Part shown: positions 13,064 through 25,307 of the stretch, in pieces
Position numbering within the stretch: the stretch's first letter is position 1
Layout: every line of letters begins with the position of its first letter
NCBI GenBank assembly: GCA_015680905.1
Contig: CM027379.1
Location: forward strand, 33,374,501 to 33,438,500
DNA from: Coptis chinensis
Taxonomy: Eukaryota > Streptophyta > Magnoliopsida > Ranunculales > Ranunculaceae
Length of the DNA stretch: 64,000 bases
Direction of reading: 5' to 3'
The notes under the pieces: model-generated
What the model was told of the DNA's origin: nothing
Database searches by the model: none
Seen by the model: only the letters and a program-made list of their open reading frames with translations
Made by a program: the position numbers and the translations under genes

Positions 13064-13066
13064 GCC

Positions 13067-13350
13067 CACTACTAAAAGAATGGCTTTTTGTGTCACTTAT
13101 TTTTTTTGTCTCGTGTCACTTACTAGAAAAAAGTGACATATAGAGTTTTGATGTGTCACTTTTTTATGGAATGAGGGTTGATGTGTTGCTTCTAGGAAAA
13201 GTGACACAAGTAATTTTATTTTTTGTGTCTCATTATTTGAACGTGACACTAGTAGTTTGCCTTGTTGTGTCACTTCTGGGTGTAAAATAATCGAAAACAA
13301 AATTAACAAATTATCGAAATAAATAAGCGACACTAGTAATTGCTTATGCC
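13067..13350 (+). repeat. Cac-1 left terminal and subterminal repeats
   Basis: Terminal inverted repeat plus about eight scattered GTGACAC/GTGTCAC motifs in both orientations. In En/Spm such motifs bind the small TNPA-type protein; that role here is inferred. Confidence 0.8.
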
Positions 13351-13838
13351 ATGAAATTGAAAGTCGTGATTTGGGCCGGGGATATATTTTTAGGTTCGCT
13401 CCAAAAAGAAATTAACTTAAAAAGAACACTTAGGGTTAAAAAAGAAAAAAAATGGAAGATAAAAAAAGAAAAAATGTCTCGCAAAAATGGCTGAGGAGAC
13501 CTCACCATTCTTCCTCCCAACTAATTCTCACCGGCGTTCTAACACCACGCGCGCTCTTCCACCCAGCGGTCTCTCGTCCATCTCTCGTTCTCCGTCCTAG
13601 TTCACTTTCCAGCTATCTCTCTCTCTAAAATAAAGGTAATATTGTTTTTTGTTTCTATTTAATTTCAGTTTATCTCTTGCGATAACTTAGTTTGAGAGTC
13701 ATAGAAAGTTTGAAATCAAGATCAAAAGCGAGTAGTTTCAGCAGCAGTCAAGGTTTCAGCAACAGAATCTCCTTGGCAAGAATAAGATTAGTAAAAATAT
13801 CGGCAGCAAAAAAAAAAAAAAAAAGGTTGTAGGCAAGG
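13351..13838 (+). other. Leader of the captured U2B'' copy
   Basis: Purine-rich DNA (13430-13490) followed from about 13500 by a C/T-rich, CpG-containing stretch (for example 'ctctcgttctccgtcc') that looks like a plant 5' leader, so upstream sequence of the host gene was probably captured too. An A18 run lies at 13808-13825, just before the ATG. No TATA box stands out. Confidence 0.45.
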
Positions 13839-14540
13839 ATGCTTGCAGGAGATGTGCCACCAAACCAAACTATTTACATAAAAAATCTCAACGAAAAAAT
13901 CAAGAAAGATGATTTGAAAAGATCTTTGTATGCTCTGTTCTCTCAATATGGAAGAATCATGGATGTTGTTGCATTGAAAACAGCTAAACTTCGAGGCCAA
14001 GCATGGGTTGTGTTTAGTGAAGTTACAGCTACTAGTAATGCAGTGCGTTCGATGCAAAACTTTCCAATTTATGATAAACCAATGACGATATAGTTTGCAA
14101 AAACAAAATCTGATTATCTAGCCAAAGCAGAAGGCACATTTGTTCCTAGTGAAAATAAAAAGAAGCAGGAAGAAAAAGATGAAAGGAAACGCAAGGCTGA
14201 GGAGCCGCATAGTGCTGTTACAGCTAATGACTCAAGTGTCTAGAGTAATGGGGCTTTTGTTGCTTCTCATCGACAAGGAAAGCCTGGCGAACAAGAGGCT
14301 ACTGCTCCAAATAGTATATTATTCATTCAAAATTTGTGCTATGAAACCACGAGGAGTATGCTACAACTTTTGTTTGAACAATATCCAGGTTTCAAGGAAG
14401 TCCAGATGACAGCAGCGAAGCCTAGGATTGCTTTCATAGAGTATGAAGATGTGGTCCATTCATCAATTTCCATGCAGTCCCTTTAGGGCTTTAAAATTAC
14501 TCCTCAAAACCCCATGACCATCATTTATGCCAAGAAGTGA
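13839..14540 (+). pseudogene. Captured copy of U2 snRNP protein B'' (U1A/U2B''/SNF family)
   Basis: A 234-codon frame without any indel, about the length of plant U2B''. RRM1 spans residues about 10-85 with RNP2 IYIKNL (12-17) and RNP1 RGQAWVVF (52-59). A Lys/Glu-rich linker follows, then a second RRM ('ILFIQNL', 'PRIAFIEYED'), ending 'IIYAKK'. The family binds U2 snRNA stem-loop IV in the spliceosome. Three in-frame TAG stops (codons 85, 135, 216) break it. The first and third fall where the family has Gln, so CAG to TAG change is likely, as expected from deamination of methylated CHG sites. The coding part has no intron. It lies inside Cac-1 between subterminal repeats and TNP1-like exons, so it is a transposon-captured (transduplicated) gene copy, transcribed, if at all, in the same direction as the transposon gene. 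Confidence 0.88.
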
Positions 14541-23018: not shown

Positions 23019-23020
23019 TT

Positions 23021-24592
23021 TGACCAGCCTCTTTTTGTATGTGTAGATGAGATGAATGATGTAGATAGATGATGGTCCTTGAACAACATAGAAGTGTATC
23101 AAAACCTAATTATCCCTCAATAAGTAAAGGATGAGTAGGATATCGTTCCACTTTTAAGTGTATGTTATGTGAAGGACAGGACTGGAAAGGGGGTTTAAGG
23201 GATTAAAAACTATGAATATAGAGATTTAGATTCTAATGCTAAACTAAACTAAATTAACTAAACTATTGGGAGTTTATAAGAGAGGGAATTCAAGAGATTA
23301 GAATCCACCAATACTTTTAATCTATGACCTTCTGCTTCATGGTTGTTCTTACAAGTAGACTACAATTAGGCAATCGAGCAAGTGCCGATGCCCTCTTGGA
23401 CAAAACATCATTAACAATTAACTCTACTTAAGGTTGTTCCTATGTTTATGTAAGCTCGGGCAGCCATTCAATGTATTACCAAGAGCAACATCAAGGAGTA
23501 CTTCCTAATAGGGCGGCCATTCAATGAATCACCACTTAAGGCAAACACAAAGAATACTTCCCCTAGGAAGTGGGGAAGTCACTCCCTGAGCTACCCCTTC
23601 TAAGGCCACACAAAGAATACTTCCCTAACTCTAAAGAACTATACTACTAGAAGAAAAGTAAAGAACACTAGCATGATATTAATATAGCAAAACATAAACC
23701 CTATTCTATACTTCCATCCCCTAGTGTGGGCAATGGAACTAATAACTAAAAACATAAAGAACTAACCTGATTGAATAACACCATGAACCAGAAGAATCAT
23801 TAAACCTTAAACACTGGCTTCATCTCCTCCATTGAAGGAGAAGATTAGCCTTCCATAAAGAAGGAAGAACACGAAGAACGAGAAGAAGAAGAGTCGAAGA
23901 ACATAAGACTAGAAAGACTAATTTATTAAGACTCAGCTAGTTAAAACCGATCTTTTATTATTAATCTCTCTCTGCCTCAAGTTCTGGAGACAAGAATATA
24001 AGTGAATTGGCCCATTACATGAGGCACTTAGGTCCTCTATTTATAAGGGTTACAATGAGCTCTAGAAGCATTCCAAACCGTCATTTGTTTCCTAATACAA
24101 ATAGACTTCTTCCAGAGTCTAACTTCATCTCCAAAACTTAGAAGGAATTGGCTACAGTGTCGGTTCATCCGTCTAGACACACTATTCATGCATCCCAGAC
24201 TTAATCAATGCGTCCCAAACGCATGGGTCGCGTCTCAAACGCGAGACTCTATTTTTGCACCTTTGGTCTATTTTTCTTTCCTCTTTTGTGGGTTTTGGTC
24301 CATGCAACGAATCCTTTGGCCTTGGACTTCCAAAAAGGCTTTAAAATAGGTCCAAGTCGCATCTTTAATAGCTTCAATTCCTTGGCCTTCTCCATGATTG
24401 TCCACGGGCTTCCCATGTGATCCTTAATGCTTCGAATTGCTCCATTTTATCTCTTTTCCTCTAATATTCTACAAAACTCTCTTTTTCACCTGTAGAATCT
24501 TAAAAGATAACTTACAAACACTATTAGTCCACTAAGATGGCTAAACAAGAGGCATAATCAAGGGTTAAATTACACTTTTTGAGCACTTATCA
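23021..24592 (-). repeat. Ath-3 5' LTR
   Basis: 1572 bases. Compared with the 3' LTR it lacks about 25 bases after 'tatgtttatg' (near 23450) and part of the GCGTC repeat region. Other differences are scattered substitutions. TATA-like sequence near 24040. Confidence 0.9.
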
Positions 24593-24597
24593 CTTAT
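24593..24597. other. Target site duplication of Ath-3, right
   Basis: cttat; matches 18037-18041. Confidence 0.9.
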
Positions 24598-25307
24598 GTG
24601 TCGCTTTTGACGTACTTGTGTCACGCTATGGTCCAAAAGTGACACAACTAATATATTTAATGTGTCATTTCCAAAAGTGACACAACTAGTATACTTAATG
24701 TGTCACTTTTGACGTACTTATGTCTCGCTCTGGTCCAAAAGTGGCACAACTAGTATACTTAATGTGTCACTTTTGATGTACATGTCTCGCTCTGGTCAAA
24801 AAGTGACACAACTAGTATACTTAATGTGTCACTTTTGACGTACTTATGTCTCGCTCTGGTCCAAAGGTGACACAACTAGTATACTTACATACTTATGTCT
24901 CGCTCTGGTCTAAAAGTGACATAATTAGTATACTTAATGTGTAACTTTTACTAAATGTGTCACTTTTGACGTACTTATGTCTCGCTTTGGTTTAAAAGTG
25001 ACACAACTAATATACTTAATGTATCACTTTTCACGAAATTATGTCCCACTCTGGTCCAAAAGTGATACAACTAGTGTCACTTTTGACAAGCATTGTGACA
25101 CTCTTTCTTAAAAGTGACACAAGAGGTTATTCTTAAGTGTCATTTTATTAACAAAAAGTGACACATTTAGTAAGGCTTTTGTGTCACTTTTGGTAGAACT
25201 TTATGTCTCGGGGGCTGTTAGGTCACTTCAAAATTAGTTTCAAAAGTGACACAAGTGATTTCTTGTGTCACTTAAAAAGTGACACAAAAAGCCTTTCCTT
25301 TAGTAGT
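24598..25307 (+). repeat. Cac-1 right subterminal array and terminal inverted repeat
   Basis: About seven to eight units of roughly 62 bases. Each has AAAAGTGACACA, a spacer 'actagtatacttaa' and TGTGTCACTTTT, that is a 12-base palindrome arm pair, followed by 'gacgtacttatgtctcgct'. Later units (after 25090) are more diverged. Ends in the terminal repeat at 25307. Confidence 0.88.

Follow-up and report, generated by a model that had tools for sequence, protein, structure and literature searches.

The stretch of DNA analyzed here, referred to below as the window, comprises 64,000 nucleotides (C3:33374501-33438500) of the 935.6-Mb Coptis chinensis genome and contains a CACTA transposon that carries a copy of the gene for U2B''. 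This copy is a processed retrocopy, inserted into an already existing CACTA element. The features that define it are listed here by their positions in the window.

13067..25307, plus strand: CACTA element, ends included, recognized by terminal inverted repeats, subterminal GTGTCACTT-type repeats, and the genomic count of its terminal 31-mer
13420..13697, plus strand: CACTA leader region, common to other family members and aligned in 19 of the 19 leader-only loci examined
13783..13792, plus strand: 5' copy of a 10-bp target-site duplication, TAAGATTAGT, read in the sequence; empty site in relatives
13793..14837, plus strand: U2B'' retrocopy, made of part of the 5' untranslated region (UTR), five joined exons, and part of the 3'UTR; the five exons of the gene at C7:92.90 Mb are matched, and none of its four introns is present
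13839..14540, plus strand: U2B'' frame of 234 codons, the last being TGA, interrupted by premature TAG at 14091, 14241, and 14484
14838..14850, plus strand: A-rich remnant of a poly(A) tail, 13 bases, directly after the end of the match to the parent
14851..14860, plus strand: 3' copy of the 10-bp target-site duplication, TAAGATTAGT, read in the sequence

The U2B'' frame contains the motifs IYIKNL (RNP2) and RGQAWVVF (RNP1), has no indel relative to the coding sequence of the parent, and is interrupted by premature TAGs at codons 85, 135, and 216. A preliminary description of this DNA, made from the sequence alone, had reported a 702-base, two-RRM frame without indels and with three TAG stops, and this is confirmed. 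The parent gene, on C7 at 92.90 Mb, has five exons in the matched part with four introns between them, and its protein of 233 amino acids, with two RRM stretches, is 100% identical to Coptis chinensis IFM89_021232. The best PDB match of this protein is human U2B'' (244 bits), followed by U1A (234 bits), and an identity as U1A was rejected on these scores.

A whole-genome search with positions 13400-15200 as the query gave 46 matches, the best 40 of 170 candidates being scored and weaker repeats undercounted. They include seven long retrocopy matches, counting the window copy (two on C2, one on C3, two on C7, and two on C8), the gene in pieces at C7:92.90 Mb, a set of pieces at C9:21.76 Mb, and many leader-only matches. 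Chance or misassembly of a lone frame was rejected, as seven copies lie at seven loci with boundaries in common. Nor does the frame sit at a single locus with host synteny, an arrangement that would have spoken against the capture proposed in the preliminary description; there are seven carriers, and the donor lies elsewhere, on C7.

The structure of these copies is the anatomy of target-primed reverse transcription, and the machinery was presumably of the long interspersed element 1 (L1) type, whose retrocopies have target duplications of some 7-20 bp. Comparison with the donor shows all four introns to be absent at the exact splice sites in each of the seven copies. The window retrocopy keeps 46 bp of the 5'UTR. 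The 3' ends are A rich in six of the seven copies, with about 24 A in the one at C8:63.99 Mb (c8_64) and only a few in c2_10. Furthermore, the insertion site is empty in related elements: in three relatives without the retrocopy, read directly, the sequence runs straight through it, and in all nine other CACTA elements with both flanks these overlap, by coordinates, by exactly 10 bp. Nine further places, and two in part, show the downstream flank only and are uninformative on the empty site.

The retrocopy lies between the ends of one CACTA element, as the preliminary description held for the frame. The left end is at 13067 (CACTACTAAAAG...) and the right end at 25307 (...TTTAGTAGT). These ends are not due to chance, because a genome search allowing up to three mismatches gives 451 matches to the terminal 31-mer and 0 to its reversed control. 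Terminal inverted repeats of the CACTA type are present in the window, and ...TTTTAGTAGTG is found at the right ends of four of the seven carriers. The CACTA's own DNA within these limits comprises 13067-13792, 14851 to about 18046, and about 24592-25307. In the 19 leader-only loci, the leader alignments reach query positions 575-658 (window 13614-13697). Thus, the "leader" that the preliminary description ascribed to the captured gene is sound for the 46 bp of U2B'' 5'UTR, while the remainder is the leader of the CACTA itself, present in all of these loci.

The same description also placed "TNP1-like exons" in the element, and these were not recovered. Six read-through frames scanned over 14838-18040 gave no transposase Pfam match, and residues 191-270 of the read-through of 15715-17514 (the "TNP1-like" stretch) have no homologue at E<=0.001. 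Autonomous CACTA members encode a TNP2-type transposase; PF02992 is abundant genome-wide (150 of 2715 candidates scored), and no link to the CACTA family of the window was made. The element also holds a second piece of host coding DNA:

14846..14947, minus strand: antisense F-box fragment, an older capture and the host site of the retrocopy (Pfam F-box, E 2.7e-6, 27.5 bits, cut-off 20.5)

As the retrocopy site lies within this fragment, the CACTA had already captured a piece of another gene. The fragment is common to family relatives without the retrocopy, one of which (L037) scores 20.3 bits, just below the cut-off. With CACTA ends around host coding DNA (the U2B'' retrocopy and the F-box fragment) and no transposase match in 14838-18040, the window element works like a Pack-CACTA, but its cargo was not acquired like one: the U2B'' sequence did not come from chromosomal DNA adjoining the element and arrived as spliced complementary DNA (cDNA).

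After insertion, the copies decayed. They differ by 5.2-10.2% among themselves and by 5.1-8.2% from the parent, with 3'UTR distances to the parent of K 0.049-0.086 and BLAST identities to the parent mRNA of 84-92%. A full-length frame is present in the window copy only, among the seven carriers; in the other six, the 3' end is affected by a common deletion and codon 132 has become a stop (TCA>TAA), and the window copy has neither change. All seven frames contain in-register stops and none of these is common to all, which suggests that the U2B'' frame was probably open when first carried by the CACTA. The changes private to the window copy, defined as those at which the parent and at least five of the six other copies agree, comprise 7 synonymous and 24 nonsynonymous ones against 151 and 548 sites (binomial p 0.83), and purifying selection on this copy was rejected, the private changes showing a neutral ratio and no sign of it. 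Its C>T/G>A changes affect 13 of 72 CHG (H being A, C, or T), 3 of 25 CG, and 5 of 236 CHH sites (CHG versus CHH, Fisher p 8e-6), and its three premature stops are all CAG>TAG. This is a CHG-methylation-like pattern, as expected for methylated, silenced transposon DNA, and the copy was presumably methylated. Conversely, five coding differences separate the parent from both the window copy and at least five of the six other copies, and four of them are synonymous, which fits a parent gene that remains under selection. A further sublineage is suggested by the carriers at C8:57.78 and C2:97.02 Mb, both of which have lost the same internal part of the CACTA body (query about 2042 to 3545).

Another state of the same gene is found at C9:21.76-21.78 Mb (C9:21757001-21780000; pieces L052-L054 and L056), where left and right CACTA ends enclose intron-bearing U2B'' DNA. 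The parent-derived part reaches from intron 1 into intron 4, corresponding to positions 1801 to about 4357 in L051, the reversed C7 piece. It is interrupted by an 8.3-kb CACTA whose ends are different and which has a GCA duplication; about 600 bp of other sequence follow, and then the CACTA 3' body. Exon 4 is truncated and exons 1 and 5 were not found there; therefore, this copy cannot yield a protein. The parent-derived part begins after AAATATAT, where the carriers read AAAAATAT, the first retrocopy bases, so that its start lies 8-9 nt beyond the boundary of the retrocopy. At the other end, copying jumped backward from position 4357 to 4187, the two places having TCTTG in common. The C9 introns lie at K 0.037-0.064 from the parent, overlapping the range of the retrocopy 3'UTRs. 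In exon 2, codon 62 is GTT and codon 71 is TCG in C9 and the carriers, against GTA and TCA in the C7 gene; both captures therefore trace to a similar state of the parent. The CACTA sequence of 14851-17128 is absent from C9 and kept in whole or part beside the retrocopy by the carriers, so that the carriers cannot descend from C9.

The leader joins the captured fragment in C9 as it does in the carriers, with about 1.35 kb between the two in relatives n35 and n37. We dropped the view of this junction, common to the seven carriers and C9, as a derived deletion, given a scrap of 64 bp at C8:46041637-46041700 (L063) that is 95% identical to window 13689-13752 and spans the leader junction only. The DNA around this scrap, read out in sequence, is otherwise unrelated, with no CACTA leader and no U2B''; the scrap perhaps derives from the source of the captured fragment that adjoins the CACTA leader. 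Since it carries the same stretch, the junction may be the older state of the family, or the longer form may be, and it is a weak sign of common descent. We consider it most likely that the C9 element arose from a broken carrier whose repair copied the homologous parent gene and involved template switching.

Several other explanations have to be weighed against these observations. The preliminary description had a CACTA capturing a full-length U2B'' gene as DNA. The full-length copy exists, in the window alone, but ordinary transduplication of genomic U2B'' with later loss of the introns is refuted for the seven carriers and has next to no probability left. A CACTA with intron-bearing U2B'' does occur on C9, yet it is no ancestor of the carriers, as it lacks 14851-17128, and four introns gone at exact splice sites in seven of seven copies, an A-tail, and a 10-bp duplication empty in nine of nine elements do not fit that route. 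The same C9 element could instead have captured genomic U2B'' independently, as a sister element in which the retrocopy was never present. A leader tree with 18 relatives and five of the seven carriers (c7_88, c2_97, and L023 were left out as too short or without the stretch) places C9 outside the carriers with support 88/91, just 8-9 nt of possible retrocopy sequence stand at the C9 junction, and the shared leader junction may be the older state indicated by the C8 scrap. However, the parent-derived part begins very close to the retrocopy boundary, and it would be a strong coincidence if one 2.6-kb gene stretch in 935 Mb had been hit twice independently; moreover, the whole of 13640-13800 is matched at eight places, and all eight hold U2B'' DNA. 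We therefore regard an independent C9 capture as rather improbable, though still a serious competitor.

A working cargo, in which CACTA-driven sense transcripts or small RNAs would act on the host U2B'' gene, has a low probability. The retrocopy is sense oriented downstream of the CACTA leader, and the 84-92% identity to the parent mRNA might permit cross-talk through small RNAs, but the frames are broken in seven of seven copies, substitution in the window copy is neutral, and the decay is of the CHG type. Judged from sequence, a function of the U2B'' cargo is unlikely.

Retroposition into the CACTA, followed by transposition, has to be set against a number of observations that weigh against it. 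The flanks of the window CACTA (GCC versus AAA/AAC) show no matching 3-bp duplication. Five carriers could be scored for this duplication, the left CACTA end being lost in c7_84 and unlocated in c2_97; it is exact in two of them (ACG and TGG), agrees in two of three letters in one more, and is unmatched in the window copy and c8_57. The ratio of nonsynonymous to synonymous substitution (dN/dS) for whole copies versus the parent is 0.47-1.0 and below 1 for six of seven. We attribute these values to constraint on the parent branch, where four of the five shared differences are synonymous; given the values, a short functional period of the cargo is nevertheless conceivable. In a tree of the 3' body, relative n35 and C9 are placed with the window copy, and relative n37 with the other six carriers. 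Together with the position of C9 in the leader tree, this indicates that exchange between elements has blurred the carrier lineage, and the trees of the leader and the 3' body do not settle the placement of C9. Finally, the enzyme was not assigned to any long interspersed nuclear element (LINE), and no search aimed at its source was made.

With these points considered, we are highly confident that the best explanation is retroposition of U2B'' mRNA into a CACTA element, transposition to at least seven places, and decay, with C9 most likely produced by copying of the parent gene. A spliced, polyadenylated U2B'' mRNA would have been reverse transcribed and inserted by a target-primed (L1-type) reaction at the leader side of an existing CACTA, inside the older F-box fragment and in sense with the leader. 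CACTA transposition would then have brought the carrier element, or its descendants, to at least seven places, and the seven frames would have decayed singly or in subgroups, with C>T at CHG sites predominating in the window copy. Break repair in one carrier may subsequently have copied the parent gene with template switching and given rise to the C9 element.

The window CACTA also contains a later insertion.

about 18047..24591, minus strand: nested long terminal repeat (LTR) retroelement inside the CACTA, with two LTRs

The LTR pair differs at 56 of 1557 aligned bases (Kimura two-parameter distance, 0.037), which, at rates of 7e-9 to 1.3e-8, gives an age of about 1.4-2.6 million years. The minus-strand frames at 19646-22614 within this element are ones that we take to be gag/pol-like. 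On its outer sides (12800-13066 and 25308-26000), the CACTA appears to be inserted within a frame that is presumably a Gypsy-type gag. Elsewhere in the genome, inward-facing terminal 31-mers lie about 16 kb apart at three places on C5 (14231309/14247724, 14390230/14406613, and 46750596/46766725), possibly larger, autonomous members of this CACTA family. Another dispersed host-gene piece besides U2B'' is the 3' part of eIF3G with its RRM (Pfam eIF3g and RRM_1), seen at C4:74958701-74959500 (L059) and C2:29773901-29776500 (L060-L062). With 79-100% identity, it occurs at 39 places including the query, at 23 of which the match covers at least about 350 bp, and several of the pieces carry TAG or TAA stops.

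Gene capture by CACTA elements is already known, as are processed pseudogenes and template-switch fillers. Processed pseudogenes arise by L1-type target-primed reverse transcription, and the U2B'' copy resembles them in its lack of introns, its poly(A) tail, and its 10-bp target duplication; unlike them, it landed in a mobile DNA element, and one event was multiplied to at least seven loci. In the accessible text on Pack-TYPE and Pack-CACTA elements, acquisition is described as tandem insertion and remobilization (PMC13317346, PMC8903248). The U2B'' sequence, in contrast, came by retroposition of a spliced mRNA, and the window copy is a whole coding sequence rather than a fragment. The strings "retrocop", "intron", and "filler" have no occurrence in the accessible text of the review among these (PMC13317346). 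An animal precedent is the ARF6 retrogene in a MER20 transposon, left open by its authors in the passages available (PMC8277862). Both cases place a retrogene inside a terminal inverted repeat (TIR) DNA transposon, but in the seven Coptis carriers the empty sites settle the order of events. The same source, as far as available, treats gap-filling and template-switching capture in TIR elements (PMC8277862), with filler joined by short microhomology, comparable to the slip in C9. Here, however, the filler is the parent of the retrocopy found in closely related elements, which suggests a homology-guided choice of template. Our literature search of titles and the beginnings of abstracts met no plant CACTA with a spliced host cDNA, nor the combination of order-fixing empty sites with a closely related element that has captured the same gene together with introns; subscription papers lay outside this search, and absence is unproven.

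These results bear on the uptake of host genes by DNA transposons, which is still argued over. In Coptis chinensis, three states stand side by side in one genome: the empty element, the element with spliced cDNA, and the element with intron-bearing parent DNA. Retroposition into a transposon is a route that the available passages of the review (PMC13317346) do not name. For annotation, the window copy is a warning that dead cargo in a CACTA can look like a clean "gene" without introns. The C9 element is the part most worth following. The findings also suggest that such cargo may steer later captures. Tentatively, and at somewhat less than an even chance, we propose that a hitchhiking cDNA supplies a long stretch of homology, so that repair of a break in the element would copy the intron-bearing parent gene. 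If this is true, retroposition would be an initial step in the uptake of genomic genes by TIR elements, and other CACTA families would be predicted in which one gene is present both at a retrocopy stage and at an intron-bearing one.

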